A stretch of DNA of 64,000 nt from Symbiodinium sp. CCMP2592. Its lineage: Eukaryota; Sar; Dinophyceae; Suessiales; Symbiodiniaceae. The stretch is from positions 228,501 to 292,500 of the forward strand of contig CAJNDT010006007.1 of assembly GCA_905221615.1 (NCBI GenBank), read 5' to 3'. The position numbers were made by a program, and so were the translations under genes. The number at the start of each line of letters is the position of its first letter. The stretch's first letter is position 1. Under the pieces are notes generated by a model. The model made no database searches and was not told where the DNA came from. It was given only the letters and a program-made list of their open reading frames with translations. Of this stretch, positions 307 to 20,369 are shown in pieces.

Positions 307-370
307 TTTGGGTCGTTGCTTGCTTGCTCTTTCGCAAGACAGCGTCGAAGCAAGCAAGCAACGTCCCAAA
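307..370. repeat. Hairpin element H1
   Basis: Core CTTTCGCAAGACAGCGTCGA at 329-348. The arm CGTTGCTTGCTTGCT (314-328) is perfectly complementary to 349-363. After one T/T mismatch the stem continues with TTTGGG (307-312) against CCCAAA (365-370). It is the longest stem of the family in this window. Confidence 0.93.
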
Positions 371-371
371 G

Positions 372-1148
372 ACCGGCATCGGAGAGGCGGCCTGAGGAGG
401 TGCCGGGAGAGGTCATCCCAGGGATTACGGTGGTCCGGAGCCTCGTGAAAATGGCTGATTGTAGTTGCAAAGGTTCGTCGGGAGCCCCGAGCCTCCATAG
501 CACGCATTATACCAAGCCAGGGTATAGGGGTATAGTATCATGGAAGAAGAAACATAGCGGCAGCTGACAAACATCCCCAAACGGAAGCCGCAACACTGGT
601 CTCTGAAAGGAGTCGGGAATTAGGGTTTCGCTCTTCATCTCAAACCACAACAGGCCAGCGTATGTTACTTAGCCGATTCAACAGACTCCAGGGGAACGCC
701 AGGGGCTTATGGGTCCTTAGGCCTAGTAGTAGGACTAATGCAGGGATCATGGTGGTCCAGAGCCTCCTCCAGAAAGATTGATTCTAGCTGCAGACATTCA
801 TCGAGAGCCCCAGGCTTCGGTGACACCCTGTGTATCAACCCAAGGTATACTATCTCAGAAGAAGAAACCCGGCGGCATCTGGCAAACATTCCCAAGCGGC
901 AGTCACAACACGGGTCTCTCAAAGGATGATTGGGGATTTAAGATCTATCCTATACCACAAACGGGTCCACCTCGCTGAGCTGCTGCGCGATCCGTGGCGC
1001 CGGGATTCCAGCAGCGAAAGGCAGTGCAGTCATTAGGGATTTGGAAAGACACCGTTCCGAAGTGAAACACCTTACTTCACCAGGAAACCCGCCAGATGCC
1101 GCAAAGTATTTAACGTGCCACGCAATCGAGGAGCTCCTGCGTCTCGAT
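372..1148. repeat. Direct duplication, copy 1 (about 0.78 kb)
   Basis: This segment recurs at 1653-2420, offset about 1271 bases and roughly 95 % identical by eye. Inside each copy a unit of about 170 bases occurs twice in diverged form (near 428-600 and 750-930 here), recognisable by GGTGGTCC, GAGCCCC, a CAAGG or CCAGGGTATA block and GAAGAAGAAAC. The short reading frames across it are copied along with it and show no conserved-protein features, so I call no gene. Confidence 0.85.
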
Positions 1149-1417
1149 GAGCCTTTGTCTGCTCACAGGACGTCGCGGCCAGGAGGAGAACACCGAGGCA
1201 TTGGGAATCACTACGCTTCCGCCGCACCAATGTACCAATGCGAGCACTTGAAGTTGCCGTTGACGGTTCGCCCATCATAGTTCTCGCTCGGCAGCCTTCG
1301 ATTGTCAATCGGCCTGAGACGCCCACGGTACCTCACAACTTCATGGTGCACTCCTGCTCCGTTGACGGATCCATGTGCTTCATAAATGCACGCTTCGTGC
1401 AATGCGTTGTCTCTTTA

Positions 1418-1458
1418 GCACACAAACACACACACACACACACATACACACATACAAC
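1418..1458. repeat. (CA)n microsatellite
   Basis: Run of CA dinucleotides with a few T interruptions, in the spacer between the two copies of the 0.78-kb duplication. Nothing else recognisable between 1149 and 1652. Confidence 0.85.
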
Positions 1459-1652
1459 TGGTTCGTGGGAGTTCGCAAGATCAAGTGAGACCACAGAAGC
1501 CTGCGATTTGACTTCGATCTATGCAGAACAACAGACCTTACACTGCATCACGAAGCATTTCGGAGTCGGGTTGGGGGTGGAGAGCCAGCGCGGGAGGAAC
1601 CTGGACCTAGACCGGATTACTCTTCCCAGGCGACCCTCCCCGGCCTTCGTCG

Positions 1653-2420
1653 TCAGCATCGGAGAGGTGGCCTGGTGAGGTGCTGGGAGAGGTCATACAC
1701 GAGTTACGGCGGTCCGGAGCCTTGTGAAAATGGCTGGTTGTAGTTGCAAAGGTTCATCGGGAGCCCCGAGCCTCCATAGCACGCACTGTACCAACCCAGG
1801 GTATAGTATCATGGAAGAAGAAACATAGCGGCAGCTGACAAACATCCCCAAACGGAAGTCGCAACACTGGTCTCTGAAAGGAGTCGGGAATTAGGGTTTC
1901 GCTCTTCATCTCAAACCACAACAGGCCAGCGTATGTTACTTAGCCGATTCAACAGACTCCAGGGGAACGCCAGGGGCTCATGGGTCCTTAGGCCTAGTAG
2001 TAGGACTAATGCAGGGATCATGGTGGTCCAGAGCCTCCTCCAGAAAGATTGATTCTAGCTGCAGACATTCATCGAGAGCCCCAGGCTTCGGTGACACCCT
2101 GTGTATCAACCCAAGGTATACTATCTCAGAAGAAGAAACCCGGCGGCATCTGGCAAACATTCCCAAGCGGCAGTCACAACACGGGTCTCTCAAAGGATGA
2201 TTGGGGATTTAAGATCTATCCTATACCACAAACGGGTCCACCTCGCTGAGCTGCTGCGCGATCCGTGGCGCCGGGATTCCAGCAGCGAAAGGCAGTGCAG
2301 TCATTCGGGATTTGGTAAAAACACCGTTCCGAAGTGAAACACCCTACTTCACTAGGAAACCCGCCAGATGCCGCAAAGTATTTAACGCGCCAAGCAATCG
2401 AGGAGCTCCCGCGTCTCGAC
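1653..2420. repeat. Direct duplication, copy 2 (about 0.77 kb)
   Basis: Second copy of 372-1148, with single-base differences and a few small indels scattered along it. It ends where the sequence turns into GGTGGCCAATCCCTGTGGAG, which resembles the palindromic motif of the satellite at 22.67-23.99 kb. Confidence 0.85.
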
Positions 2421-3163
2421 GGTGGCCAATCCCTGTGGAGACTTGCAGACGGTGCCACCCCTTGTGCTAGCGGCGCTCCACAGGAACCATCATCCGCGCC
2501 ATCGCGGCTGTCATCATGCTGATACCACCAGAGCAGGTCCAAGCCTCCAAGCGGCCACATTCTGTGGCGAGGCAGCCAAGATGACTGCAGGGCAGAACGT
2601 CAAGAGCCAGCTTCTCGTTTGGCCAGCACGACGGACTCGCGGGTTGGACAAGCCGCGCATTTGGAGTAGTGCTGCCTAGGCGAACACAACGGACTCGCAG
2701 GTTGCTTGCACAGGCCGCAGGCACCGTCCCGCCAAGACAAGCCGCGCATTTGGAGTGGTGCTGGCTAAGCTCGTCTGAAGGGTTGCAAAGTGTGCCATCT
2801 CAATGGCGACTTCTCAAGAGGAAGAACGGATCATTCAAGAATCCAAACAGTAGCAGTGGGCAACGAAGCTAAACCGGGACACCGGGTTGAGCAGAACCCC
2901 GAAGACCTTTCGGCCACACAACGGAAATTCTGAACTTGAACCAACCAAGCCCAGCAGTCCGCAGTGGGAAACTCAGGAAATGAAGAGGTTTCTGTTAGAC
3001 CGACCTTCCCAGCCTCGACGAATCCAAAGCGACCGGGCAGTGCAGGCAACCTCAGGAGCAGGGTTGCCCCGCCCAAGCAGCCGCACTTTCGCAAGACAGC
3101 GTCATTCTGCCACGAGCAGAAGAAACAACAAACAAGCGATTTTCTTCTCGTGGCGGCGTCGTT
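2421..3163. other. No gene recognised; short internal repeat
   Basis: About 740 bases without a convincing gene. A block of about 27 bases beginning ACAAGCCGCGCATTTGG occurs twice, near 2648 and 2731. Reading frames here are short and shared between strands. Confidence 0.4.
3077..3110. repeat. Hairpin element H2 (decayed)
   Basis: Eighteen bases of the hairpin core are intact (3086-3103) but the last two differ. The arms pair only through GCAG (3077-3080) and CTGC (3107-3110). It appears to be a degraded member of the family, 75 bases from H3. Confidence 0.7.
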
Positions 3164-3212
3164 GTTGCTTGCTTGCTCTTTCGCAAGACAGCGTCGAAGC
3201 AAGCAAGCAACG
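3163..3212. repeat. Hairpin element H3
   Basis: Core at 3178-3197. The arm GTTGCTTGCTTGCT (3164-3177) is perfectly complementary to 3198-3211, with one further T/G pair outside. It lies 43 bases beyond the stop of the minus-strand RCC1-like gene. Confidence 0.93.
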
Positions 3213-3253
3213 GTGGAAGCTAGCCAGAGCAAAGAATTCACAGCCCGCACGGC

Positions 3254-4561
3254 TCACCGTGGAGTCAAGGGCCGCGCCACCCAGTCGCCCCAGCTCACGA
3301 CTTGGTCGTTGTCAAGAACGGCAGCAAAACCAAGAGCGGAGGCTGCGATACCCCGCACATTCTTGAGCTGATCTCGCACGGCACTGCTGTCGCCACCGCG
3401 CTCTGGGAAGCCCCATGATACAACCGTGCCGTCGGCCTTAATGGCAGCGAAAGCATTGAAGTTGCTTGCGATCTGCTCCACATCTGTCAACTGATGTTGC
3501 ACTTTGCTGCTGTTGCCACCATGAAGGCCACAGCCCCAGGTTACGACGGAGCCATCGCGTAGAAGCGCTGCAAAGGCTCCGCGGTTACTTTGGATTTCTC
3601 TAACGTCCTTCAGCCGTTTCTGCACTTCACTGCTGTCCGCACCAGAATATCGACCCCCACCCCATGTAACCACGGAACCATCTGTGCGGATCGCTGCAAA
3701 CGCATGCGTCGTCGATTGGATGGCCGATACATTGCACAACTGTTCCTGCACCGCGCTAGAGTCGCCTCCGCTGAAGTCTTCACCCCATGTAAAAACGGAT
3801 CCGTCGGTCAGAATGGCTGCAAAAGCCCTCGATGAGGATTGGATGGCGGTGACGTTTTGCACAGGCACAGAACTGCATTTGCCCCAAGTAACGACAGATC
3901 CATCGTCGAGCAGCGCCGCAAAGGCTTCTAGTGACGCTTGAATCTGCCGCACGCCTTTGAGTTGCTTCTGCACTCCACTGGAGTCGCCTCCGTGTACACA
4001 TCTTCCCCACGTCACGACAGAGCCATCTGTGCATGTTGCCGCAAAAGCATCGCCGGTGGTCTGGATGGCCTGCACGTTCATTAAAAACTCCTGCACTCTC
4101 AGGCTGTCCCCACCGCCAGTTCGGGAGCCCCAGGTAACAACAGAACCATCGGCCTTGATAGCAGCAAAAGAAGATCGACCCGCTTGAATCTGCCGCACGT
4201 TCTTCAGCTGATTTTGCATAGCGGGCTCGATGCCGCCTCCGTAGTCTTGCGCGCCCCATGTAACAACGGATCCATCATCAAGAATCGCCGCAAAGGCGGC
4301 CCCTTCCTGAGACGATGCAACGGCCTGCACGTTTTTCAAACGGTCCTGAACAGATTTGCTGTCACCACCAGTCATAGCATTCCCATAGGACGCGACCGAA
4401 CCATCGCGGCGGAGCAACGCACAAGAGAACGCGCTCGAGCTCAAAGCCGCTTCGAGGAAGAGGTAGAGATTGCCCGAATCAAGGCGACCCCTACCTCTTG
4501 CTCGCGCCTCCTCCAATGAAACCTGTTCTCCACTCAGGAGATGTACAGTGACACGTTTCAT
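3254..4561 (-). CDS. RCC1-like repeat (beta-propeller) protein
   Basis: A single uninterrupted frame of 435 residues with an ATG at 4561. The N-terminal 25 residues (beginning MKRVTVHLLSGEQV) look like the start of a ubiquitin-like segment. The rest is ten repeats of about 40 residues built on FAAIxxDGSVVTWG followed by GGDSxxVQxxLKNVxxIQ. This is the RCC1/HERC pattern, in which each repeat forms a propeller blade; ten is more than the usual seven, so the fold may be two incomplete propellers. No catalytic domain such as HECT is attached, so the role is probably binding or scaffolding, and a partner cannot be named. There is no intron, unlike the plus-strand genes of this window. Hairpin elements lie 43 bases past the stop (H3) and about 200 bases before the start (H4). 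Confidence 0.85.
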   Translation of the reverse strand: MKRVTVHLLSGEQVSLEEARARGRGRLDSGNLYLFLEAALSSSAFSCALLRRDGSVASYGNAMTGGDSKSVQDRLKNVQAVASSQEGAAFAAILDDGSVVTWGAQDYGGGIEPAMQNQLKNVRQIQAGRSSFAAIKADGSVVTWGSRTGGGDSLRVQEFLMNVQAIQTTGDAFAATCTDGSVVTWGRCVHGGDSSGVQKQLKGVRQIQASLEAFAALLDDGSVVTWGKCSSVPVQNVTAIQSSSRAFAAILTDGSVFTWGEDFSGGDSSAVQEQLCNVSAIQSTTHAFAAIRTDGSVVTWGGGRYSGADSSEVQKRLKDVREIQSNRGAFAALLRDGSVVTWGCGLHGGNSSKVQHQLTDVEQIASNFNAFAAIKADGTVVSWGFPERGGDSSAVRDQLKNVRGIAASALGFAAVLDNDQVVSWGDWVARPLTPR

Positions 4562-4760: not shown

Positions 4761-4809
4761 TGTGCTCAGCCGAACTTTCGCAAGACAGCGTCGATTCGGC
4801 TTCAGCACA
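4761..4809. repeat. Hairpin element H4
   Basis: Core at 4775-4794. The arm AGCCGAA (4768-4774) pairs with 4795-4801, and TGTGCT with AGCACA extends the stem beyond a small bulge. It sits between the 3' end of the ankyrin-like pseudogene and the 5' end of the RCC1-like gene, both on the minus strand. Confidence 0.92.
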
Positions 4810-5180: not shown

Positions 5181-5215
5181 TTTGCTCGATCGTTCGCAAG
5201 ACGGCGTCCGAGCAA
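5181..5215. repeat. Hairpin element H5 (variant core)
   Basis: The loop region 5189-5208 contains GTTCGCAAGACGGCGTC, a variant of the family core. The arm TTGCTCG (5182-5188) pairs with CGAGCAA (5209-5215). H5 and H6 lie in a local direct duplication of about 80 bases. Confidence 0.85.
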
Positions 5216-5260
5216 GCAAAGAAACGAGACAGAAACGGTCGACATCTCATTCGTCCAAGC

Positions 5261-5290
5261 GCGCTCATTCGCAAGACGGCGTCCGAGCAA
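5261..5290. repeat. Hairpin element H6 (variant core)
   Basis: Same variant core as H5, with shorter arms GCTC (5263-5266) and GAGC (5285-5288). It begins 33 bases past the stop of the minus-strand 235-aa gene. Confidence 0.8.
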
Positions 5291-5322
5291 GCAAGGAAAC
5301 GAGACAGCAACGGTCGACATCT

Positions 5323-6030
5323 TCATTTGCTCAGCATCCGCGTGTACCACCATCGGCTGATTAAACGACGCAAGAACTTGCGCTCAGCTGCATCCTTGAA
5401 GTCCGCGGCCCGAGCACGAAGCACGATGTCGCGAACAGGCGCGTTTGTAACCAGTCTGGTATAGCTGCTTCCCTGCCTCTCGCTGAGACACGCAGCCATC
5501 CTCGCCGAAAGACCTTTGCGCAACTGCACCTTCTCCAAGTGCGCTGCGTGCACACACATGAAAATCGAAGAGGTCCGATCGAAGACATCGAGGTAAAACT
5601 CCGGCATTCCCAACCGCCAAGTGCGCCGGAGCGTCGCGGCGACCGCAGAAGCCCAGCTCCGGGACACGGCGGTCATCGCCTGTCGTCGTCGCACTCCCAC
5701 CTGCTCCAGCCTGATCATGACCACGTCCCCTCTGACCCTGGCAGTCACACTCGGAATGAACCGCCGCCACTGTTCCGCGCGGTGGAGAACCGTTTGCTGG
5801 CAGACGCCATCTCGACGACAATGAAAGTAGCCCTCGACATCGTGATGGCAGGTCACGACGTTGTGTCCGTTCCTCCAATGAACCTGCACACTCACGTGAA
5901 CCCACATTGCATCGCACAGCAGCCTTTCCAGCAACGGCGCCGGCAAGCAAGAAGCCTTCGCCATCGCTGGTACTGCCGCCATATCAGCAGCTTTTCTTGC
6001 ACCAGACGAGACGTCGTCACGTGTTTCCAT
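5323..6030 (-). CDS. Hypothetical protein, 235 aa
   Basis: An open minus-strand frame. I take the ATG at 6030 (METRDDVSSGARK); the frame stays open to about 6129, but that extension only crosses the hairpin repeats. The protein has no signal peptide or clear membrane segment. It is rich in Arg and Ala, with a His/Cys-containing stretch near residues 60-75 (GHNVVTCHHDVEGYFHC). I recognise no family. Codon use looks protein-like, with few stops in this frame only. It is intronless, and its two ends are bounded by hairpins: H6 just past the stop, and H7 and H8 just before the start. It appears to belong to a row of minus-strand genes separated by those elements. Confidence 0.6.
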   Translation of the reverse strand: METRDDVSSGARKAADMAAVPAMAKASCLPAPLLERLLCDAMWVHVSVQVHWRNGHNVVTCHHDVEGYFHCRRDGVCQQTVLHRAEQWRRFIPSVTARVRGDVVMIRLEQVGVRRRQAMTAVSRSWASAVAATLRRTWRLGMPEFYLDVFDRTSSIFMCVHAAHLEKVQLRKGLSARMAACLSERQGSSYTRLVTNAPVRDIVLRARAADFKDAAERKFLRRLISRWWYTRMLSK

Positions 6031-6060
6031 GGCTAACGCCGGTGAACTTCTAGGGAGGCA

Positions 6061-6090
6061 CCGAGCTTTCGCAAGACAGCGTCGACTCGG
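6061..6090. repeat. Hairpin element H7
   Basis: Core at 6066-6085 between CCGAG (6061-6065) and CTCGG (6086-6090). It is 31 bases upstream of the ATG of the 235-aa gene. H8 is a tandem copy. Confidence 0.9.
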
Positions 6091-6115
6091 CAATGAATGA
6101 ACTTCTAGGGAGGTA

Positions 6116-6145
6116 CCGAGCTTTCGCAAGACAGCGTCGACTCGG
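6116..6145. repeat. Hairpin element H8
   Basis: Core at 6121-6140, arms CCGAG and CTCGG. The H7-H8 pair with its flank GAACTTCTAGGGAGG is repeated as H11-H12 at 17167-17270, the left edge of the second copy of the duplicated unit. Confidence 0.9.
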
Positions 6146-6176
6146 CAATCAAAAGGGTATGAACAGCAATGGAGCC

Positions 6177-6368
6177 AAGAACATTTTCTGCTTGCAGACT
6201 TTTCTTTCTTTTAAAAACCTGACAGGCAGCAGAGCTGCCGTGTTTTGCATGTGAGTTTTGAAGAACATTTCTTGCATGGGAACTTTCATTGTCTTTGAAT
6301 AAGCAGATCGGATACCTTTGGCTTTCCCGCGAGTCTGCTCAAAGAGAGAGGCAAGAAATTTTTCTTTC
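6177..6368 (+). repeat. Split direct repeat A1
   Basis: Identical to 14573-14764 except for one base (near 6279). It begins with the AA crossover dinucleotide. It holds an inverted repeat GGCAGC-AGA-GCTGCC at 6225-6239, about 54 bases from the crossover, and a second copy of the end motif AAGAACATTT at 6261. Confidence 0.95.
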
Positions 6369-6466
6369 AGGCCTCTAGAGTCCCGTATTGTGCAAGCTAG
6401 AAGTCTCCAGGTGCTAATCTCAAGGCTTTAGCTGAGTGCACGGCGCCCCCCCGTTGGGGGTGCTAG

Positions 6467-8776
6467 ATGGACGGGACGCTTCCGGCGCCTCAGCAGGTGC
6501 CAGTGCTTTGCCCTGTGACAGGACAACTCTTGCAACAGGTCTCCACTCCGGTTGAGCCGGCACCTTTCCCGCCTGAGCCTCCTTTGTCGCTGGGGGACCT
6601 GCCTTCAGCCAGTCCCGAGTCTCTGCCAAGGGGTGTTAGGGGACTTCGGGACTTCAGGGGGTCGGTTGGGGATCTGCCTAGCCAATCCGTTGAGATTAGT
6701 GACGAAGACCAGGACCTCGATCAGGGCTGCTCGGGCTCCCCTTGGAACCTGCTACGTGCGAGGGAACAGGAGGGCAACAGCCCTCGGGAGTCCAGATTCT
6801 CTGAGGAGAGGGGCTTTTCAGAGTTTGATTTTGGGAGTCTCGCCACCCATCCTTCGTTGGACAGGGAACCTTCTGATTTAGCTTACGAACCCTCCCTTGC
6901 TGAGGAAAGGGAATGGTACTCGCAGGTAGGAGAGACAGACTCCCTTAATCCTCCGATAGAACTTCGTGGAGCTCTTCCTCCTGACATTGTTCAGGGGGGG
7001 GAGACGGCTTCTTGGTTGTGTGGTGCTGCTGCTGATGATGATGCGAGACAGGCCGCCACGGTGGCCTTCTGCAAGAAGAGACGACTCGACCTGCCCTCGC
7101 TGCCTTGGAGCCAGCCCAAGACATTTCTTCAGAAGTCCTACGATAACATTTTCAATTTTGTGCCTGCAGTGGGAGTGAGGGAAGCCATTATGGGAGCAGC
7201 GTCTTCATCGGAGCCTGCACCGGAAGCAGCAAGTGAAATTCCATGGACTGTGGTGCGTCGCCTGACGCGTGTTCGCTTGACCAAAAGTGACGATGACATT
7301 CGAGATGCGGCCTTGAAGCGTTTCAAGGTCTTGATACTGCTAGACCCGGAAGCGACTCGCCTTGGGGCAAGCCTGCTGAAACAAGGATTGGGTCTGGAGC
7401 CTGACGAGGTGATTGCAACTAGTCTGGCGGATGCCTTTAGAGCCAAGGCCTCCACAACAATTCAGAAACGAGCTCTCTCGCTGCAATCCTTGGCTATCAT
7501 GGCTTATGACCTAGGCTTTGAGTCGCCCTGGCGCTTGACCGAGCCCCAGGCCTATGAGATCTTCAGCAAGCTTCGCAGCTCGGAGGCCAAGGCCTCGACT
7601 GCCTCCCACTTCGTGGAAGCTCTGGGATTTCTGCACGGGGTGGCTGTGTTCAACTTCATGGCCTTGGACATCATTTTATCTTCAAGGGTGCGGGGCATTG
7701 CAAGAGACATGAAGCTTCACAAAGAACCGCTCAAGCAGCGAGATCCTTTATCTTATGCGAGGGTCAGAGCCTTGGAGGGGCTGATGACCAAGACTTCAAC
7801 TTGGGTACAATGCGTGCTCGGCTTCATGCTCTTCTGCCTGCACTCTTGTTGCCGCTGGGCGGATGGCCAGCGAGTCAAGGGACTCGAGCTGGTGGGAGAA
7901 GGCCGTGGGCAACTTTTGATTGCGTCAGGTCTGGGGTCTAAGACGTCATTGACGGCTGACGCCCAAACGAAATTTCTGCCGTACGTATGCGTGGCTGAGG
8001 GGGCGAGCGGCCAGCCTTGGGCAAAGTTGTGGCTGCTTGCCCGTACTGCTGAAGGCCTTGACTTCTCGGCGGGGTGCCTTCCGTCGTGGTCTCAGCGTGC
8101 CAACTGCTGGGCAACGGTGCCTATGAGTTCGGAGGAGGGATCGGACCTCCTTGAGGAGTTCCTCCTTACCATTGACATGGGGGCCTCCCGTGACGAATCG
8201 ATTGGTACCCACAGCTTGAAGGCTACCCTGCTTTCATGGGTGGGGTGGAGCTCCACAGTCCATTTTAGTGCCAAGGAGAAGTTGCTACTTGGGCATCACT
8301 TCAAACGGGGAGGTTCATCTAACCTCATCTATTCCCGCCAGTACTACATCTCCCTTGCAGGTAAGCTCCTTGCACTTTTCGAGAGCATTAGGGCTGGAGA
8401 TTTTGATCCCGACATGTCAACCTCTGACAGAGTTGCAGCTGTTGCGTCGAGACACTTCAGCCGCCCGGAGCCAGACGCCCCGGTACCCCCGAACGAGGAT
8501 CCCGACGAGCTGGAGTCGCTGGCTTCTAGGTCTGCCGAGTCCGAGGCGGAGTTCTTCGGGCATCCAACGGCGGCTACTGGATCAAGGCTCCCCTTTACGG
8601 AATGCACAGTTGACCAGTTGATGATCCACTCCCTGTCAAACATCGTGCACAAACTGAGGGATGCTTCAAGCTTCTTTTGCGGGAGGCCGGTCACCTCTAG
8701 GTACAGAGTCTTCACCACTGAAGACGAGGAGGAGCCCGAGCCGTGTATTCAGTGTCGTCGGGCATCGGAGTTTTGA
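6467..8776 (+). CDS. Tyrosine recombinase of the DIRS-like element
   Basis: A 769-residue frame from an ATG 98 bases after A1; a GC-rich hairpin (CCCCC against GGGGG) lies just before the start. The C-terminal third carries the tyrosine-recombinase catalytic set: Arg463 in CCRWADGQR, a candidate Lys492 in GLGSKTSL, His582 and Lys585 in THSLKATLLSW (Lys where HxxR is usual), His610 in LLGHHF, and nucleophile candidate Tyr622 in IYSRQYY. The enzyme would insert a circular DNA copy by strand exchange in the nucleus. The N-terminal 200 residues are acidic, Pro/Ser-rich and probably disordered. The HSxKATLLSW and LLGHH blocks are typical of recombinases I associate with dinoflagellate genomes. Having this ORF first, before Gag and Pol, is unlike most DIRS-order elements. 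Confidence 0.88.
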   Translation: MDGTLPAPQQVPVLCPVTGQLLQQVSTPVEPAPFPPEPPLSLGDLPSASPESLPRGVRGLRDFRGSVGDLPSQSVEISDEDQDLDQGCSGSPWNLLRAREQEGNSPRESRFSEERGFSEFDFGSLATHPSLDREPSDLAYEPSLAEEREWYSQVGETDSLNPPIELRGALPPDIVQGGETASWLCGAAADDDARQAATVAFCKKRRLDLPSLPWSQPKTFLQKSYDNIFNFVPAVGVREAIMGAASSSEPAPEAASEIPWTVVRRLTRVRLTKSDDDIRDAALKRFKVLILLDPEATRLGASLLKQGLGLEPDEVIATSLADAFRAKASTTIQKRALSLQSLAIMAYDLGFESPWRLTEPQAYEIFSKLRSSEAKASTASHFVEALGFLHGVAVFNFMALDIILSSRVRGIARDMKLHKEPLKQRDPLSYARVRALEGLMTKTSTWVQCVLGFMLFCLHSCCRWADGQRVKGLELVGEGRGQLLIASGLGSKTSLTADAQTKFLPYVCVAEGASGQPWAKLWLLARTAEGLDFSAGCLPSWSQRANCWATVPMSSEEGSDLLEEFLLTIDMGASRDESIGTHSLKATLLSWVGWSSTVHFSAKEKLLLGHHFKRGGSSNLIYSRQYYISLAGKLLALFESIRAGDFDPDMSTSDRVAAVASRHFSRPEPDAPVPPNEDPDELESLASRSAESEAEFFGHPTAATGSRLPFTECTVDQLMIHSLSNIVHKLRDASSFFCGRPVTSRYRVFTTEDEEEPEPCIQCRRASEF

Positions 8777-9350
8777 ACAGGTCTGAAACGCCGCAGACAA
8801 AAGCCGTATGGAGCGAGTGGTTGCAACATTCACAAATTGGGATGCCAGGACCTGTCGAAGCTTCGTAAGTCTTGAAACAGTCCATGCTGATCGGCCGGCT
8901 TTTGTGCCCGTGGCCTCTGTCGTGTAGTTATGGCGCTACGATGGCATAGGGCTGATACGCCAGGTTGGGCATACCCCTTTGTGTTTTGGGTCGGTGAGTT
9001 TCTCACCCGAGACCCGAGTGATATATCTGACGACAGAACTTGTCGGTTTGACCCATGACGGCTTGAGAGAGAAGCGCTGGGATTGATTAACGCGGTGATG
9101 ACTGTAAGTCCGAGTCACCACATGCAAATGTCAGCCGGTATCTCGCGATGCCCGGGGCTGGCCTTGTGATCGTGTATCGCCTTGTGCCGGCCAGGGTTGG
9201 CCCGTGGCACGGGTGGATGATTGAGCTGCCCTTATTGCGGCCGTGGCTCACAGCGGATGACCATGATGGTTGCTGGCACGAGAGCATCACCTGTCAAACG
9301 TTGATCCAAGATCACCGAACTCGGGGGTTTAATCGTGATCGCTTGCAGCC
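8777..9350 (+). other. Spacer between recombinase and Gag ORFs
   Basis: About 570 bases with stops in all plus frames. It is expected to hold the leader or promoter for the Gag-Pol message. I recognise no specific element. Confidence 0.5.
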
Positions 9351-10562: not shown

Positions 10563-13500
10563 CCCAGCCAATCGGGAGGTGGGCCAGCTCCTGAGGCAGC
10601 TCCCTTGGCCCACGGTGCAAGCCGAGCTACATGCTCAGAGTCTTTCGCGAAGACTCTTAATTCAGTCAATGTGCCGCCGTCCCGTCTTGACTTGCAAAAG
10701 TTGCATGAACATCTTGTTGCGGATGGCTTGCTACGTCCTGACGCCAGAACTCAGCAACCGAATTTTGGGGTTGGGGCTTTTTCCCAGGGAGGGCTTCAAG
10801 GTCTGCGTGGTGAGTGTAAGAACTTCCCACAAACGACCAAAGCTATTACAGCTTTCGTGCGAGCTCAACTCCCGGATCTTTTCTTTACGACTGTTTTCCT
10901 GTTTTGCAATTCCATGACATCCATGCATGTAGATTCCAAGAATCATAAGTCCCCCACTGGTGTCATACCGATCGGAGCGTTCACAGGAGGCCACATCTGG
11001 GCCCAGTGTGACCATGGTTCGGTTATGCGCCCCATCAACGGTACACCGACCGCTGGTGAATTGCTTGATGTGTCTGCTGGACCCATCACCTTCGAGGCTT
11101 ACTCCAGAGCCCATTGTACCGAACCGTGGCATGGCAACAGACTGATCGCTGTGGCATTTTGTGTCTCTGATTTGTCCAAACTTCCTGTTGCCGATGCAAA
11201 TTCCCTTTTGTCCCTTGGGTTTAGGCCCCCGACCTCCTTGGGTTTCCCACTTCAGATCGCCGAGCAGGCGCAGCCCCCGCGACCTGATGACACGTGGATC
11301 TTCGAGATCTTTTCGGGCACTGGGGGTTTCGCTCGAGCTTGCCTCCGGAAAGGCTTCAAGGTTCTAGCCTTTGATGCAAAATTAGCCGGGGCCATGGTCC
11401 CTACTGCAAATCTTGACTTCTCCACAGACGCAGGTCGCGAGGTCTTTATGTCAATGTTGAAGCAGTGCAAACCTTTTCACGTCCACCTAGGGGTGCCGGC
11501 AGGTTCTGCGTCAGCCTCCCAGCGGGCCGCGAAACCCGATAGCCGATCACAGGGCGCCCGTTTGAGCACGCTTCGGACGCCGACACATTGCTTGGGTGTG
11601 CCCCAGATCGTGTGGTCTTCTGCCGAAGGCATCAAGCTTAGGAAGGAAAATGCCCTTTTCCGTTTCTGCTTCGATGTCATTTGCTTATGCCTCGACGCCA
11701 ACATTTCAGTCAGTGTCGAAAACCCGGCCAACTCTTTGCTGTGGCATGTCTTCCAACGCTTTGCTTCTCAGGCTGCCATCAGGTGGCCGCCTAGCCAACT
11801 TGAACAGGTTATCTTTGCCATGTGTGCGCATGGGGGTGACCGCCCCAAGCAGTGCAAGCTTCTGGCTTCCAAAGGCCTCTTTTCCCCTCTGGCAGCCAAG
11901 TGCAGCAAAGATCATGAGCATGCTCCATGGTGGTCGCACTCCCGCCTCAGTGCGTGCTATCCGCCTTTGCTCTGCACACGCATGGCGGACTGTGTCTCGT
12001 CTCTAGCATCACAGTCGGGCCGGGTCCTCACGGCGCCCGATGACTTCCATGCAAAGGCCATGGCTGCAGCAGCCAAGCAAAGCAAGCGGCATGCCCCGCT
12101 CATTCCGGAGTTTCACAAGGTCACCTGGGAAACTCCCCGCTTCAAGCCAGATAAGTCTTGCAAGATCCTCCTGACCCACGTTGAGGGGGATAGTGGGGGT
12201 CAGACTTCGGATCCAAAGAATTTGAAACCTGTCAAGGTAGGCCATTGGCTCAATATGGATCAGCATGTATCGAAAGCCCGAACGTTGCAGCATCCTGTGG
12301 ACAAGACGATTGCAGTTGACCCACCTGTGTGGGAAGCCGTCAACTTTTGCATGGCGCATGAGTCTGCCAAAGCTAATCAGCTTAGAAAGCTTGAGCTCCT
12401 TAAGGTGAAGCTCCTTGCCAAATCCCTTGAAGAGGAAGAGACAAAACTTCATGCCTCCTTCCCGCCTTGGTTCGAGAAGGTGGTCAAAGGAAAAAGGATT
12501 TGCTTGTGGGAGTCTCTCTTGAAAAATCATGGCTTTGACGACATGGGGGTAGTGGATCTGATGAAGAAAGGGGTGCCTTTGGTAGGAACTTCGGAAAAAC
12601 CTGAATGCTTTAAGACCAAGGTGGCCATGGCTTCCATGTCCGAATCAGAACTCAGGGCCACTGCCTCTTTGCGCCGTCGTGCTACCTTGTCAAAACCGAA
12701 CCGTGCGACCCCTGAAGAGATTTCGCTTCTTCAGGAGGCCTCTAACTCCGAGGTTACCGATAACTTCATAGAGGGACCCTACACCGAGGCCCAGGTCACT
12801 GAAATTTTCGGCCATTCGGATTGGGGCATCATTCCCAGGTTCGTTCTTGAGCAAGGCCTTGAGAAGAAGATTCGACCCATAGTTGATGGGCATGCTTCGC
12901 AGGTCAATGAGGCTTTCACTTCCTTGATTAAGCTGGAACTTCAAGGGGCCGACTTCGTTGCGGGTCTGGCCCTGCTGATCTCCCAGGCCGAAAAGGAACG
13001 TTCAGAGCGCCTAGGTGTCGCTGCTAGGAAGTGGGTGGGTCGGACCCTAGACCTCTCAAAAGCTTACAAACAACTAGGGGTGCTCCCGCAACACCGTGAC
13101 ATCGCCGTCATCTGCCATCCCAATGAAAATGGTGAACCGCAATTCTTTATTGCGAACGCACTGATGTTCGGCTTGACATCGTCGGTGTATGGATTTGTAA
13201 GAGTAGCTAGAAGCTTGCATTTCCTTCTGGCCAAAGTGCTGAAGATCCCTTCAGCCAACTACTTCGACGATTACCCTCTCTTCACGTTGAGAGATGGGGC
13301 CCACGAGCTTGATGGTTTAACTTCCGAATTCCTAGAATTGCTGGGGTGGCGCTTCGCCCAGACCGGGGTAAAGGGTCAACCGTACGAGGAGGCCTTCACA
13401 GTCCTCGGAATGCAGCTGGACATCAGTCGTTTGCATGAAGGTGCTGCCGTGCTGGCAAACAAGGAAGGCCGTGTCAAGCGCATTTCCGAAATGCTGGGCA

Positions 13501-14246
13501 GCATTTTTGACAAGGGAGCCCTGGGCAGGCATGAGGCGCAAGTTCTCCTTGGACTCTTGAACTATGCCTCAGGTTTCTTTGCAGGCCGATCCTTGAAGCC
13601 AGCGTGCCACTTCCTGCTCTCCTTGGTAAGGGGAAAGCGCCAAACGGCTGCCGAAATAAAGCGCTTCTGCAAAACTACACAGGCTGTCTTGAGCACCACT
13701 CTATCTAGAGTCCTTCGCATCTTTGACCCTCGACCGCCCATTCATGTTTGGACGGATGGAGCTTGGGAAGATCCTTGGGCGGGAATAGGTGCGGTTGTTC
13801 TTGACACGCTAGATGATAGTGCCAGGGTTTTTGCCGGTTGTGTACCTGCTAAGCTTTTGGAACGCTGGAAGCTGGATGTGGGATCGCAACTCATATGCGA
13901 GATCGAGCTCTACGCTTTGGTTACTCTGCGTCGCATGCTCCAAAATAGCTTGTGCAACAGGAGAGTCATCTTTTGGCTTGACAACGAGGCCGCACGCACC
14001 TCAGCCATCAAAGGTTTGAGCCAGAGCGAGTCGATGTATCGCCTCGCCCATTATCTTGCAGTGATCGAAGCTGAGGCGCCTTGTATCGCTTGGTACGAGA
14101 GAGTGCCTTCCTTTTCCAACATAGCCGATCCCCCTTCACGAGGTGAGGGGCACAGCATCCTCAGCTTGGTAGGCGCCAAGGTCGTGGAAGCTTTCATCCA
14201 TGATGAAAGCTCAAACCAGAGATTCCTTCATCAGGGGTTCGCGTGA
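10563..14246 (+). CDS. Pol polyprotein: oxygenase-like, methyltransferase-like, RT, RNase H
   Basis: 1227 codons counted from the codon after the Gag stop. Residues about 95-205 resemble a 2-oxoglutarate/Fe(II) oxygenase: HVDSKN (His122, Asp124), GGHIW, then His184 and Arg193 in AHCTEPWHGNRLIAVAF. Residues about 245-450 resemble a C5-type methyltransferase: FSGTGGFARACL (SAM loop, 250-261), VPAGSAS (311-317) where PC is expected, and SVENPANSLLW (384-394). Reverse transcriptase follows: LDLSKAYKQL with Asp830, and YFDDY at 900-904. RNase H has Asp1065 (WTDGAW), Glu1113, Asp1140 (LDNEAA) and Asp1189 (ADPPSRG). RT and RNase H look active; the methyltransferase may not be, as its cysteine is Ala. 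The oxygenase assignment rests on motif spacing alone. There is no DDE integrase, in keeping with the recombinase ORF. Confidence 0.85.
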   Translation, partial: PSQSGGGPAPEAAPLAHGASRATCSESFAKTLNSVNVPPSRLDLQKLHEHLVADGLLRPDARTQQPNFGVGAFSQGGLQGLRGECKNFPQTTKAITAFVRAQLPDLFFTTVFLFCNSMTSMHVDSKNHKSPTGVIPIGAFTGGHIWAQCDHGSVMRPINGTPTAGELLDVSAGPITFEAYSRAHCTEPWHGNRLIAVAFCVSDLSKLPVADANSLLSLGFRPPTSLGFPLQIAEQAQPPRPDDTWIFEIFSGTGGFARACLRKGFKVLAFDAKLAGAMVPTANLDFSTDAGREVFMSMLKQCKPFHVHLGVPAGSASASQRAAKPDSRSQGARLSTLRTPTHCLGVPQIVWSSAEGIKLRKENALFRFCFDVICLCLDANISVSVENPANSLLWHVFQRFASQAAIRWPPSQLEQVIFAMCAHGGDRPKQCKLLASKGLFSPLAAKCSKDHEHAPWWSHSRLSACYPPLLCTRMADCVSSLASQSGRVLTAPDDFHAKAMAAAAKQSKRHAPLIPEFHKVTWETPRFKPDKSCKILLTHVEGDSGGQTSDPKNLKPVKVGHWLNMDQHVSKARTLQHPVDKTIAVDPPVWEAVNFCMAHESAKANQLRKLELLKVKLLAKSLEEEETKLHASFPPWFEKVVKGKRICLWESLLKNHGFDDMGVVDLMKKGVPLVGTSEKPECFKTKVAMASMSESELRATASLRRRATLSKPNRATPEEISLLQEASNSEVTDNFIEGPYTEAQVTEIFGHSDWGIIPRFVLEQGLEKKIRPIVDGHASQVNEAFTSLIKLELQGADFVAGLALLISQAEKERSERLGVAARKWVGRTLDLSKAYKQLGVLPQHRDIAVICHPNENGEPQFFIANALMFGLTSSVYGFVRVARSLHFLLAKVLKIPSANYFDDYPLFTLRDGAHELDGLTSEFLELLGWRFAQTGVKGQPYEEAFTVLGMQLDISRLHEGAAVLANKEGRVKRISEMLGSIFDKGALGRHEAQVLLGLLNYASGFFAGRSLKPACHFLLSLVRGKRQTAAEIKRFCKTTQAVLSTTLSRVLRIFDPRPPIHVWTDGAWEDPWAGIGAVVLDTLDDSARVFAGCVPAKLLERWKLDVGSQLICEIELYALVTLRRMLQNSLCNRRVIFWLDNEAARTSAIKGLSQSESMYRLAHYLAVIEAEAPCIAWYERVPSFSNIADPPSRGEGHSILSLVGAKVVEAFIHDESSNQRFLHQGFA

Positions 14247-14250
14247 TGTC

Positions 14251-14572
14251 GGGGGCATTCAGGACGCTGCTCCCTTGATCTTGGAAATCTCAGCTTGCCA
14301 AACCCGAGATGCTTGATCATCGGTTTGGCCGGAGCTGTGGGGGCTCCTGAATCAGAATTCACCCTTGATCACCGTGCGAATAAAAAGAGTGTGGCGCGAG
14401 AGTTCTGTGAATCCTCATTTAACTTACATTGTGAGGATCTCTGATACAATATATCTTTTACTGATTGATCTTGCCATATTCCGAGATGGATTGATTTTTA
14501 TATGATTGGCATCGCTTTGATACGTGATATCTGATATCACTCGACCTTTGCGAAACATCAGGTTTTTGAAAG
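14251..14572 (+). repeat. Split direct repeat B1
   Basis: Begins four bases after the Pol stop and ends at the AA junction with A2. It carries a near-terminal palindrome GTGATATC-T-GATATCAC at 14524-14540, about 41 bases from the crossover, which may be a recombinase binding site. Confidence 0.95.
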
Positions 14573-14764
14573 AAGAACATTTTCTGCTTGCAGACTTTTC
14601 TTTCTTTTAAAAACCTGACAGGCAGCAGAGCTGCCGTGTTTTGCATGTGAGTTTTGAAGAACATTTCTTGCATGAGAACTTTCATTGTCTTTGAATAAGC
14701 AGATCGGATACCTTTGGCTTTCCCGCGAGTCTGCTCAAAGAGAGAGGCAAGAAATTTTTCTTTC
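14573..14764 (+). repeat. Split direct repeat A2
   Basis: Matches A1 over 192 bases with one difference. The B1-A2 junction is the same as the junction expected in the circular DNA form of the element. A 25-base C- and G-rich linker separates A2 from B2. Confidence 0.95.
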
Positions 14765-14789
14765 CCACCCTCCCACCCAATACGGACGG

Positions 14790-15112
14790 GGGGGCATTCA
14801 GGACGCTGCTCCCTTGATCTTGGAAATCTCAGCTTGCCAAACCCGAGATGCTTGATCATCGGTTTGGCCGGAGCTGTGGGGGCTCCTGAATCAGAATTCA
14901 CCCTTGATCACCGTGCGAATAAAAAGAGTGTGGCGCGAGAGTTCTGTGAATCCTCATTTAACTTACATTGTGAGGATCTCTGATACAATATATCTTTTAC
15001 TGATTGATCTTGCCATATTCCGAGATGGATTGATTTTTTATATGATTGGCATCGCTTTGATACGTGATATCTGATATCACTCGACCTTTGCGAAACATCA
15101 GGTTTTTGAAAG
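14790..15112 (+). repeat. Split direct repeat B2
   Basis: Matches B1 with one extra T. It carries the same palindrome at 15064-15080 and ends at the AA (15113-15114) shared with the target. Confidence 0.95.
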
Positions 15113-16428
15113 AAAGCTTCGTCGCAGAGCGGCACGGGTTTTCGCTATTGATGTAACCAAGTACACAGAGACCCCTTTTCCCGGGCACCTGGCGCCATGG
15201 CAATGACGCGACTCGGCAAAGGCCTGGGCAGCCAGACCAATGCCCAAACCACCGAAGAATCCAAATCCGAACATGAAGGCCCGACTCACGAATCGAGGGT
15301 CGGGTTAGTGTGTGGAAGCTTGACAGGCTTACCATCTACAAAAGAGCATGATGTTGGGTGTATTTGATGGGGTGCAACCTACCCGGGACCTATGTTCTGC
15401 TCGTCGACTATATGGTCTATGAACATACATACAGACCGAGCAGGCGAACACCGATCATCATGGTTCCGACACTTCGAGGGCAAGGGCAACTCGCATTCAT
15501 CGGAGGGCTTTCGCATTAGCTCAAAGTACGAAAGGTATAGACCAGAGCATGATGCGGGGTTTATTCACTGGGGTGCAACTTACCGCGACACCGAGGGTTT
15601 GGCTAGGACCTACATTCTCCTCGTCGGACAACGATCATCATGGCTTCGTTGCTTGGAGGGCGAGGACAACTTACATTCATGGGAAGGCTTTGGAATCAGG
15701 TCAAAGTACGGAGCCAGCAGTAGCTGCAAATCCTGGCTTGGGGCCTCCAGAGGCGTCATGGTGACGAGAGTCGAGAAGGGACTCAGATGGAAGAACGAGC
15801 ACGCAGGCAAACGGCAGCCTAGGGAAACCACGTGTGAATTGTTTTCACATGCGATTCCACTGCGGGTTAAGGTTCTTAGGGACCTAAACCCAACTGCGAT
15901 GAGGGTGCGGCAGCATCTGTGCACCTCGGCCAGCGCTAGGGCGAACACTGGCCGCACGAGGACGAGCGCCCAAAACGCGTTTGCGAAACACCTCTATAAT
16001 TAAGACGCAGCACTAGTAGGGAGCAGTGATTCCAGCAGCAATGTAATGAAGCAACAAGAGGAAGAACGAGTCTTGAGCTTCAGGTCGACGCGCTCATGGT
16101 CTTTCTCCGTGAGTAGGAGGAGAGGCGTGGAAGGATTGGCCCGTGGGTACGTGGGCAACGACTAGACTGGTTGGAGCGACACCTGGCACTCCGGTCGATG
16201 CGTCTTGCGCCTCGGCGGAGGTCGCTGCGTCTTCCCAGTCAAGATCGGCATCGTGGTAGAAGAAGTCGCGAAGATGCCACTTCAGATTCAACGTCCTTTC
16301 GTCATGGCCAGATCTCCGCGATATTCTCAACCATGATCGTCACTTGACGTCCACATCTTCCATATCTTGTCGGCCATAATGTTGCGCATGCCCCGCTTAA
16401 TGGCCTTCTCTCTGTCTGAGTTGTCGGA

Positions 16429-16852: not shown

Positions 16853-16856
<4 letters not shown>

Positions 16857-16930: not shown

Positions 16931-16931
<1 letters not shown>

Positions 16932-16990
16932 AAATCGCGTCATTTTTCTTCCCGGTGCTTTCCATGTCGCACGAGGTGCGGAAATGTCAC

Positions 16991-17046
16991 GGCACCCATG
17001 CAACCGAACTTTCGCAAGACAGCGTCGATTCGGCTGCACGCGGTGA
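16991..17046. repeat. Hairpin element H9
   Basis: Core at 17009-17028, inner arms CCGAA and TTCGG. The stem extends imperfectly through TGCA/TGCA to CACC/GGTG. It lies in a tandem unit of about 117 bases shared with H10. Confidence 0.9.
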
Positions 17047-17107
17047 GCAACTTCCCGTACTTCCCCGGGGCTTTGTGTGTAGCACGAGGCGCGTAATTAA
17101 ATGTCAC

Positions 17108-17163
17108 GGCACCCATGCAACCGAACTTTCGCAAGACAGCGTCGATTCGGCTGCACGCGGTGA
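17108..17163. repeat. Hairpin element H10
   Basis: Core at 17126-17145, with the same arms as H9. It ends at the boundary between the two copies of the duplicated unit. Confidence 0.9.
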
Positions 17164-17185
17164 GCGTTGAACTTCTAGGGAGGCA

Positions 17186-17215
17186 CCGAGCTTTCGCAAG
17201 ACAGCGTCGACTCGG
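17186..17215. repeat. Hairpin element H11
   Basis: Core at 17191-17210 between CCGAG and CTCGG. It is the counterpart of H7. Confidence 0.9.
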
Positions 17216-17240
17216 TAATGAATGAAGTTCTAGGGAGGCA

Positions 17241-17270
17241 CCGAGCTTTCGCAAGACAGCGTCGACTCGG
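17241..17270. repeat. Hairpin element H12
   Basis: Core at 17246-17265 between CCGAG and CTCGG. It is the counterpart of H8 and lies about 30 bases left of the empty target site. Confidence 0.9.
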
Positions 17271-17295
17271 CAATCAAAAGGGTATGAACAGCAAT

Positions 17296-17312
17296 GCAGC
17301 CAAAGCTTCGTC
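17296..17312. other. Empty target site of the retrotransposon
   Basis: Here GCAGCC-AA-AGCTTCG is continuous. At the occupied site the left part ends GGAGCC-AA at 6178 and the right part resumes AA-AGCTTCG at 15113. The AA is the only sequence shared by both junctions. Confidence 0.9.
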
Positions 17313-18630: not shown

Positions 18631-18870
18631 TTACTTCCCATTCGCTTTGTCTGGTAGGGTAAATGAGTCTGAACACCCGTCCGAATTAAAGGCCTCACTT
18701 AGGTAACTTATAGTCCGGTCAGTCTTACCAGCCACTATAAGCTGCGTTGATTCTTGCAAAGCCTTGCTTGCTGCGTCTGCAGGGATTCTCTGCACGGGCC
18801 CAATAGATTCGCTTATAGACATAGAAGACCGCCAAAATGATCGAATCCAGAACAGAAGTATCCCAAACAC
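18631..18870 (-). CDS. Uncharacterised ORF, copy 2
   Basis: A 79-residue counterpart of the minus-strand frame at 16429-16719, ending early (DKANGK) because the unit diverges there. Same hydrophobic start. Low confidence as a gene. Confidence 0.25.
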   Translation of the reverse strand: MFGILLFWIRSFWRSSMSISESIGPVQRIPADAASKALQESTQLIVAGKTDRTISYLSEAFNSDGCSDSFTLPDKANGK

Positions 18871-19003
18871 ATCCCCAGAAGTCCCTGCTCCTTAGGGTCT
18901 GGCCGTGTCCTTGCAGGATGGCTGCTACAAGCAGGCGAAAGGCGATGTTGATGAGGCGCACACGTCCGAGCGAATAACATACCTTGTCACGTCCACTCGG
19001 CTG

Positions 19004-19111
<108 letters not shown>

Positions 19112-19171
19112 TAAATCGCGTCATTTTTCTTCCCGGTGCTTTCCATGTCGCACGAGGTGCGGAAATGTCAC

Positions 19172-19227
19172 GGCACCCATGCAACCGAACTTTCGCAAGA
19201 CAGCGTCGATTCGGCTGCACGCGGTGA
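19172..19227. repeat. Hairpin element H13
   Basis: Core at 19190-19209, arms CCGAA and TTCGG, first of three tandem copies spaced 117 and 113 bases. Confidence 0.9.
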
Positions 19228-19288
19228 GCAACTTCCCGTACTTCCCCGGGGCTTTGTGTGTAGCACGAGGCGCGTAATTAAATGTCAC

Positions 19289-19344
19289 GGCACCCATGCA
19301 ACCGAACTTTCGCAAGACAGCGTCGATTCGGCTGCACGCGGTGA
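19289..19344. repeat. Hairpin element H14
   Basis: Core at 19307-19326, arms CCGAA and TTCGG. Confidence 0.9.
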
Positions 19345-19401
19345 GCAACTTCCCGTGCTTCCCCGGGGCTTTGTGTGTAGCACGACGCGCGTAAATGTCA
19401 C

Positions 19402-19457
19402 GGCACCCATGCAACCGAACTTTCGCAAGACAGCGTCGATTCGGCTGCACGCGGCGA
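19402..19457. repeat. Hairpin element H15
   Basis: Core at 19420-19439, arms CCGAA and TTCGG. The inner stem ends 43 bases past the stop of the minus-strand 281-aa gene. Confidence 0.9.
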
Positions 19458-19486
19458 GCAACGTCGCCTACTTCTAAGAGCAAGCT

Positions 19487-20332
19487 TCAGAGCCCCAGAC
19501 GGCGTAAGAAGTCCTCCGTCTGCTGATCGGGGTCTTGCGCCCATCCGCGAGCGTTCTTCCCGGAAGAGGAGCAGTGCACATCGAAGTTAGGGAGGCTGGC
19601 GTAGTACTGCATGCACTGCACACAGCCAGCGCTGGCCGCATATAGAAATTTGTACTCCAGTTGACGATCTTCATCCAGATGTGCATGCCTTCGCCAGTTC
19701 CGGTAATGAGGCTGGTTTTCACAAGGTGTGTAATCCACCGATGTATCACTACTCTCACTAGACATGCTGCTTGACGACGAGGTATCCCGCGGAACTTCGC
19801 CTGTCTCTGCGGCCGTAGGGCTTGGTGACCTCGGAGCGGAGGAAGGGCCAGCACCTCCGGCCGCAGCGCTGGGTGTCCGCGAAGGGAAACTTGCCCATGC
19901 AACACCGCAGCCCGGTGTCTGTGAAGCAGAACTGGGACCACAGTCTTCGCTCGCAACGTCAGGCGGCGACGAGGGTGGCGGAGGGACATTTCTTGCCCAA
20001 TGAACTCGAAATGTCTGAGAGGGAATGGCAGCGCCAGCAGCAGCACAGCCTCCGCCCGCGGTGTTGGGTTGCCGCGGAAGGGCTTTAGGCCAAACATGCC
20101 GCGGAGAGGCACTTGGCCATGCTGAAAACGGTTTTTGCCGAATCTCACACCATCGCTCAAACCTTTCCATCTCAGTGGCGAGCCACGTCTGGAACCCTGC
20201 GTCTCCGGCTTTGTTTGGACGACCGTCTCTCCGTAGCATGCGATACTTGTTCCTCACAGTGTCCACGTCCATCCATTTAGCACTGTCAGGATCGAGCCGC
20301 AATTTGTTCAAAAAAACACCGAAATCCGCCAT
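19487..20332 (-). CDS. 281-aa protein with ankyrin-like C-terminal tail
   Basis: I take the ATG at 20332 (MADFGVFLNKLRLD); the frame opens slightly earlier, within hairpin H16. Residues 1-75 look like a compact helical domain (WMDVDTVRNKYRMLRRDG, WLATEMERFERWCEIRQK). Residues about 75-215 are Pro/Ser/Ala-rich and probably disordered, with a Ser-rich run. The last 65 residues (LEYKFLYAASAGCVQCMQYY, then NFDVHCSSSGKNARGWA) resemble one to two degenerate ankyrin repeats. No enzyme motif is seen and no function can be given. The gene is intronless. A frameshifted paralogue of its tail lies at about 4840-5060. Hairpins lie 8 bases before the start and 43 bases past the stop. Confidence 0.7.
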   Translation of the reverse strand: MADFGVFLNKLRLDPDSAKWMDVDTVRNKYRMLRRDGRPNKAGDAGFQTWLATEMERFERWCEIRQKPFSAWPSASPRHVWPKALPRQPNTAGGGCAAAGAAIPSQTFRVHWARNVPPPPSSPPDVASEDCGPSSASQTPGCGVAWASFPSRTPSAAAGGAGPSSAPRSPSPTAAETGEVPRDTSSSSSMSSESSDTSVDYTPCENQPHYRNWRRHAHLDEDRQLEYKFLYAASAGCVQCMQYYASLPNFDVHCSSSGKNARGWAQDPDQQTEDFLRRLGL

Positions 20333-20339
20333 CGAGCAA

Positions 20340-20369
20340 CTGAGCTTTCGCAAGACAGCGTCGACTCAG
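20340..20369. repeat. Hairpin element H16
   Basis: Core at 20345-20364. The arms are CTGAG (20340-20344) and CTCAG (20365-20369). Compared with CCGAG/CTCGG of H7 both arms changed together, so pairing is kept. Confidence 0.9.

Follow-up and report, generated by a model that had tools for sequence, protein, structure and literature searches.

A family of hairpins with a constant tip and freely varying, paired arms in the genome of Symbiodinium sp. CCMP2592

Introduction

What keeps the tip of a small hairpin constant from copy to copy while its arms change together? The question is raised by a 64,000-nt stretch of the genome of the dinoflagellate Symbiodinium sp. CCMP2592 (assembly GCA_905221615.1, contig CAJNDT010006007.1, positions 228,501 to 292,500 of the forward strand), which we call the window and to which coordinates refer unless stated otherwise. 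An initial annotation of this DNA noted sixteen sites with a common core flanked by arms of differing sequence, and put forward selection on structure or copying through a hairpin intermediate as the cause. We find a common tip, paired arms of free sequence, a strand preference, and thousands of copies across the genome. The reading that we consider probable, judging from the sequence patterns described below, is that the copies form a family of short RNA hairpins acting in cis, located in the untranslated or intergenic regions of gene clusters that share one orientation.

Results

We searched the window for CTTTCGCAAGACAGCGTCGA at up to three mismatches and compared the outcome with shuffled sequences. 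There were fourteen matches, thirteen of them exact and one (at 3086) with two mismatches, against none in the shuffles. A second pattern, TTCGCAAGACNGCGTC, is exact at sixteen window sites, including the variant sites that start at 5191 and 5266; its three additional matches each carry three mismatches and are close in number to the 1.99 that chance would give with that many mismatches allowed. The sixteen sites of the initial annotation are thus all present, as thirteen exact cores, one with two changes and two variants. All sixteen cores lie on the plus strand within 329-20364. A covariance model built from ten of the sixteen copies and run over the 64 kb with filters off recovers the same sixteen sites, with E-values from 4e-12 to 1.3e-8, and its next best hit has E = 1.1.

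On the minus strand the core reads UCGACGC-UGUCUU-GCGAAAG and folds with three pairs (CGC/GCG), a hexaloop of the form [U/C]GUCUU, and an internal loop of GA opposite AA. A U.G or C-G closing pair stands between the variable arm and the internal loop. In the RNA-strand sense the core pattern is GACGC[TC]GTCTTGCGAA, flanked by paired arms. At the variants 5191 and 5266 the position adjoining GA/AA is G-C or G-U, so that the internal loop shrinks to GA/AA. There is one stem-loop per core, cores stand from 45 nt up to kilobases apart, and the whole hairpin spans about 32-70 nt.

The surrounding assembly comprises 1,098,105,373 bases in 5383 contigs. At two or fewer mismatches the core occurs in 3151 places (1606 forward, 1545 reverse), compared with five (4 + 1) for the reversed pattern; these genome counts are lower bounds. 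Copies are found on many contigs, some longer than 2 Mb. Two of the four classes of innermost arm pair were counted genome-wide, T-A at 345 places and G-C at 681 (1026 together), and the share of copies that pair is known for those we fetched. The fetched set consists of twenty stretches of 8-10 kb (L020-L039), one comparison stretch (L040), forty stretches of 1.3 kb from the T-A class (L041-L080) and twenty short stretches from the G-C class (L081-L100). Places were listed up to the first 100 per search, with low-numbered contigs over-sampled.

Across 203 fetched sites, which contain fifty-three distinct 7-nt arm pairs, 5.83 of seven arm positions are paired in the minus sense. Shuffled arms reach a mean of 3.44 and a maximum of 4.32 in 5000 trials. 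These counts, like those of the 121-site and flank-cluster tests below, omit sites with two mismatches in the 16-nt core and sites too near the end of a stretch. Without the loci selected by their inner pair (that is, for the window and L020-L039), the result is nearly the same: 121 sites with forty-seven arm pairs give 5.85 of seven, and the shuffles have a mean of 3.47 and a maximum of 4.34 in 2000. With a single arm pair from each flank cluster (a generous joining of 172 sites into fifteen clusters), pairing is 5.87 of seven compared with 3.42 for shuffles, and none of 20000 is as high. The lists behind L041-L100 fix the innermost pair as T-A or G-C, so pair 1 is inflated in the 203-site and fifteen-cluster tests. 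The shuffles are not tree-aware, the flank clusters both merge and split, and all copies come from one genome. The proposal of free but paired arms is borne out at both levels. Constancy of the core is partly built in, because the sites were located through it.

The window copies agree with this picture on most measures. For ten of them, 92.7 per cent of cells are paired on the minus strand and 80.0 per cent on the plus, the outer stem has changes on both sides at six of its eight pairs, and a shift of the partner by one to three columns leaves no more than 45.5 per cent paired. All 500 shuffles are exceeded by the count of paired cells, by the count of cells in which both sides have changed and by the covariation score; pairs in which both sides change and pair types do not stand out in number (81/500 and 235/500 shuffles as high, respectively). 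Among eight window representatives, including 3086, forty-nine of fifty-six inner arm positions pair on the minus strand, where the permutation mean is 35.25 and 36 of 40320 permutations are as high.

The remaining mispairs carry information about the strand. Interior positions that are not Watson-Crick on the minus strand divide into 18 G·U, 2 A·C and 14 others in the 203 sites; before the later loci were included there were fewer such positions (11, 1 and 11). A split of 18 in 20 has p = 4e-4 if arm classes are independent, which holds only in part. As these positions are mostly G·U on the minus strand, the molecule under selection is probably minus-strand RNA. One series illustrates how a pair may change: L084, L086 and L089, which are alike in their further arms, have GCAG/CTGC, GCGG/CTGC and GCGG/CCGC, or A-U, G·U and G-C at a single pair (the similarity is of the further arms only and the direction is unrooted). 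Folding points the same way. When forty-seven arm classes were folded, the z-score was better for the minus strand in thirty-five (Wilcoxon p = 3e-6), and the arm stem was kept in forty minus folds compared with thirty-two plus folds. Of eight window loci folded on both strands, the minus free energy is lower in seven. We regard an RNA-level hairpin as highly probable on these grounds.

Alignments extending past the hairpin place the sixteen cores in five homology groups, and the window hairpins are given here for the minus strand. G1 contains 304-373 (core 329-348), whose 25-nt arms are 92 per cent complementary, and 3164-3211 (core 3178-3197). G2 is the largest, with hairpins at 4762-4808 (core 4775-4794), 16997-17040 (core 17009-17028, with a run of twelve pairs on the minus strand), 17114-17157 (core 17126-17145), 19178-19221 (core 19190-19209), 19295-19338 (core 19307-19326) and 19408-19451 (core 19420-19439). 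G3 is made up of 6059-6092 (core 6066-6085), its 55-nt tandem copy at 6114-6147 (core 6121-6140), 17184-17217 (core 17191-17210), 17239-17272 (core 17246-17265) and 20339-20370 (core 20345-20364). The two variants form G4, at 5184-5217 (core 5191-5210) and 5259-5292 (core 5266-5285). The site at 3079-3112 (core 3086-3105, the one with two mismatches) stands alone.

The sixteen copies are therefore all real, but they are not independent. Likewise, complementary arms are a property of most copies rather than of each: a proper stem is missing at 3086, and at 5191 the arms pair only when offset. Sites resembling 3086 in L056 and L063 pair better, and 3086 looks decayed for that reason. The change from CCGAG/CTCGG to CTGAG/CTCAG, cited at the outset as a paired change, is genuine and lies between homologous sites of G3 (17240-17311 aligns with 20339-20415, which includes core 20345).

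Three minus-strand genes lie within the first 22 kb: an RCC1-repeat protein gene at 3254-4561 (RCC1_2, E = 8e-32; TGA stop at 3254-3256), P0001 at 5323-6030 and P0002 at 19487-20332, neither of the last two having a Pfam match itself. The end of P0001 at 5323 is matched by that of its homologue P0011, which is 83-84 per cent identical and has the same terminal residue. Homologues of P0002 have its C-terminal end in common, and P0004 and P0005 also have KLxCSMADF around the start. Cores begin 56, 37 and 47 nt past the stops of the RCC1-repeat gene (core 3178), P0001 (core 5266) and P0002 (core 19420), and the hairpins including their arms begin 41, 30 and 34 nt past them. On the other side, core 6066-6085 ends 35 nt ahead of the candidate ATG of P0001, and core 20345-20364 ends 12 nt ahead of the ATG of P0002. 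A fourth gene, in L049, has a dual-specificity phosphatase match (DSPc) just below the Pfam cut-off (32.8 bits vs 33.5); a 7-nt arm begins 24 nt and the core 31 nt past its stop. Cores thus lie 31-56 nt behind the stops of four genes, and comparing the proteins of the hairpin-bearing genes with one another gave no match at E ≤ 0.01. Wherever a copy has an identified gene, it is found after the stop or before the ATG, outside the coding frame.

More broadly, six of twenty-five flank clusters have an open reading frame (ORF) of at least 228 aa ending 5-60 nt upstream of the hairpin; for random positions, the 95th and 99th percentiles of upstream ORF length are 157 and 325 aa. Two of the long frames, of 228 and 255 aa in L038, have no Pfam match and were left out of the gene count, and L064 was dropped as a fifth gene because its ORF lies in a high-copy repeat. 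Neighbouring copies no more than 10 kb apart among the first 100 listed places form eighty-one pairs on the same strand and one on opposite strands. A search of 319,628 bases for spliced-leader relics found none within the tolerances applied.

P0002 belongs, together with P0004-P0010, to a protein family in which no member scanned has a Pfam match above cut-off. P0006 (E = 0.0033) and P0007 (E = 0.051) have a weak DnaJ-like N-terminus, and a C-terminal block around FLYAASAGC is conserved. No relatives of P0001 or P0002 were confirmed in IMG/VR.

Several other features were observed in or beside the hairpin loci. The minus-strand hairpin of L022 (near 4949 of that stretch) and a hairpin in L048 have an intact core and a (CT)n microsatellite as one of their arms. 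Beside hairpin 329 there is a tandem duplication, 376-1147 and 1656-2419, with copies about 1.27 kb apart and 95.6 per cent identical over 773 columns. Nine loci (L020, L021, L023-L027, L036 and L037) are dispersed segments of several kilobases, each with three hairpins about 95 and 75 nt apart, and these segments occur in both orientations on several contigs. An 8.9-kb insertion at 6178-15113 (plus strand) is missing from the paralogous array on contig C39 (L040), where its flanks abut. It has terminal repeats in the arrangement B...A-B-A' (6177-6368; 14251-14574; 14573-14764; 14790-15114), an RVT_1 match below the Pfam cut-off (E = 0.0044) and no clear target duplication; we take the repeats to resemble those of DIRS/PAT-type elements with split direct repeats. 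Finally, tandem arrays at 22930-23986, with units of 84 and 73 nt, contain AATCCCTGTGAAGGGTTGC or a close variant, and ORF translations from L021 suggest a similar satellite there.

Discussion

A conserved tip, a covarying stem and a preference for one strand are what one would look for in a cis-regulatory hairpin of an untranslated region (UTR), and all three are found here, with tip constancy owing in part to the core-based search. Selection on structure, one of the two causes first proposed, is supported by the covariation, the asymmetry between G.U and A.C, the minus-strand folding over forty-seven arm classes, the orientation of copies and their position relative to genes. Copies behind the stops of unrelated genes are as expected if the hairpin were a recognition signal on messenger RNA. 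Under such a scheme an RNA-binding factor would read the tip, the arms would merely clamp it, and binding would decide how the message is processed or what becomes of it, most likely through 3'-end formation or stability. The copies themselves may be multiplied chiefly by being carried along in tandem and segmental duplications.

A number of observations weigh against a cis-acting UTR hairpin. Nineteen of the twenty-five flank clusters have no such long upstream ORF, and two of the six long ORFs (the 228- and 255-aa frames of L038) have no Pfam match or known homologue. Of forty-two loci compared, thirty-two (thirty-one fetched loci and window hairpin 329) fall in one dispersed-repeat group. 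Among those thirty-one, an ORF longer than 100 aa that stops no more than about 120 nt upstream is present only at L064. Hairpins 20345, 6066 and 6121 precede start codons, which a pure 3'-end signal leaves unexplained. Antisense pairing in the 203 sites, at 4.87 of seven, is likewise above shuffles, and the minus z-score is better in only four of the eight window loci. A codon-position test on substitutions between paralogues gave little bias and is weak. Co-orientation and gene position also partly reflect shared ancestry.

Within the UTR-hairpin reading, a specific role in 3'-end formation or stability is a tentative suggestion, favoured by the cores that lie 31-56 nt behind the stops of four unrelated genes. 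Copies ahead of start codons leave room for a more general role at unit borders. A still bolder version, to which we give little credence, treats the hairpins as a code of RNA punctuation across the genome. Their thousands of stems would evolve freely, a single factor would read the tips, and the hairpins would delimit transcription or processing units within one-way gene clusters, replacing missing processing signals; self-contained units of about 34 nt would spread between genes with their arms rebuilt after relocation.

The strongest competitor is a mobile DNA hairpin, in which the core and its short arms would move as a folded single strand that a nuclease or transposase recognises, with either the opposite arm or the target serving to rebuild an arm. 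G2 and G3 have about 32 nt in common (CCGAR-core-YTCGGY) in otherwise unrelated flanks (6060-6091 vs 17003-17034, 93.75 per cent), so the surroundings of a hairpin-sized unit have changed at least once, and copies in the thousands also fit a mobile unit. However, among 121 sites in the window and L020-L039 (twenty-one sequences of one genome), no homologous site was found that lacks the core and keeps both flanks; four rows from that comparison were the palindrome matching its own reverse. Wobbles favour one strand by 18 to 2, which DNA copying would not be expected to produce, and neighbouring copies among the 100 listed places cluster on the same strand. The amplification that can be seen is tandem and segmental duplication of longer DNA. 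With one stem per core, no core-less site among the fetched paralogues and duplication in evidence, the suggested copying through a hairpin intermediate finds no support, and we think a mobile hairpin unlikely.

We find it improbable that the hairpin is part of a non-autonomous retroelement, as an RNA structure recognised by reverse transcriptase. A conserved tip with free arms would suit a recognition element, thirty-two of the forty-two compared loci belong to a single dispersed-repeat group, and triple hairpins sit in long dispersed segments. Yet the copies near the RCC1-repeat gene, P0001 and P0002 have unrelated flanks, and copies from one master would have their arms in common.

Ordinary decay of one repeat, in which gene conversion keeps the two arms complementary or a small number of palindromic ancestors passed their complementarity on, seems very improbable. 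Many copies are recent duplicates, and generous flank clustering leaves only fifteen groups. Against this, the innermost pair of the fifteen representatives is G-C in eight, A-T in three, T-A in two and C-G in two, Watson-Crick in every case (some of the loci having been chosen by a T-A inner pair), and similar copies include a G.U state between A-U and G-C states. We give least weight of all to a small-RNA precursor or target (a microRNA-like hairpin or a source of small interfering RNA): the longest copies do form flush stems of 14-15 bp, but the flush runs of the sixteen window copies (14 pairs in two, 6-12 in eleven, fewer than six in three) are short for Dicer, the constant part is the loop and not an arm, and no window hairpin matches Rfam at E ≤ 1.

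How does the family compare with known systems? The mobile double-hairpin elements of fungal mitochondria, to which it had been likened, are short dispersed palindromic units with two hairpins each. The resemblance lies in short palindromic units in many dispersed copies; here there is one hairpin per core, and copies are spread over many contigs of a 1.098-Gb assembly. With one stem per core and copies outside mitochondrial DNA, the likeness is not supported. The histone 3' stem-loop and the iron-responsive element are small UTR hairpins with a conserved loop read by a protein. They serve as our working model, though sequence and geometry differ here and copies run into the thousands. In bacterial repetitive extragenic palindromic (REP) elements the stems are conserved in sequence. 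The hairpins described here are not bacterial, their stem is free (fifty-three distinct 7-nt arm pairs in 203 sites) and their tip is constant; what the two have in common is palindromic repeats of 20-40 nt in high copy, often in tandem. Papers on REP elements include PMC2817692 and PMC3733652.

Introner elements of another dinoflagellate, Amoebophrya, are dispersed and have variable complementary arms of 8-20 nt that form a hairpin; they are introns with direct repeats of 3-5 nt at the exon edges, and the passages available to us from that account do not mention an invariant loop (PMC7789003). To that extent both families are dispersed hairpins with complementary arms of variable sequence, but ours have a constant tip, measure about 32-70 nt, and lie outside the coding frame where associated with genes, in places that could include introns of a UTR. 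Leishmania SIDER2 elements, according to parts of two papers, are retroposons found mainly in 3' UTRs that act on messenger RNA turnover through RNA structure and carry a 79-nt hallmark (PMC5689007, PMC5509151). They too are dispersed; unlike what those excerpts describe, ours is a short hairpin with free arms, known from genomic sequence alone.

Rfam gave no match at E ≤ 1 at a hairpin in the window or in five of the eighty-one loci numbered L020-L100. The exact core has no match in IMG/VR or in prokaryote genomes. A 16-nt sub-core did match eleven stretches in IMG/VR, which we treated as chance because, by eye, no more than three flush pairs flank any of them. SECIS elements, kink-turns and hammerheads were set aside on considerations of geometry. 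The exact core appears in none of the papers searched, and no described dinoflagellate hairpin family matched in that literature, the searchable part of which leaves most subscription papers and all preprints outside its scope; the passages available from two reviews contain no conserved UTR hairpin family (PMC12787238, PMC6027434). Our best reading is that the hairpin family is undescribed.

Dinoflagellates are said in a review abstract to regulate mainly after transcription (PMC12787238). The family illustrates well how the stems of a dispersed repeat can evolve by compensatory change. Its constant tip and roughly 3000 copies are a ready bait for a factor that would read it, and can be searched for in existing RNA data. 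Should the hairpin prove to mark 3' ends or the fate of messages, a question about gene expression that is still open in these algae would become testable.

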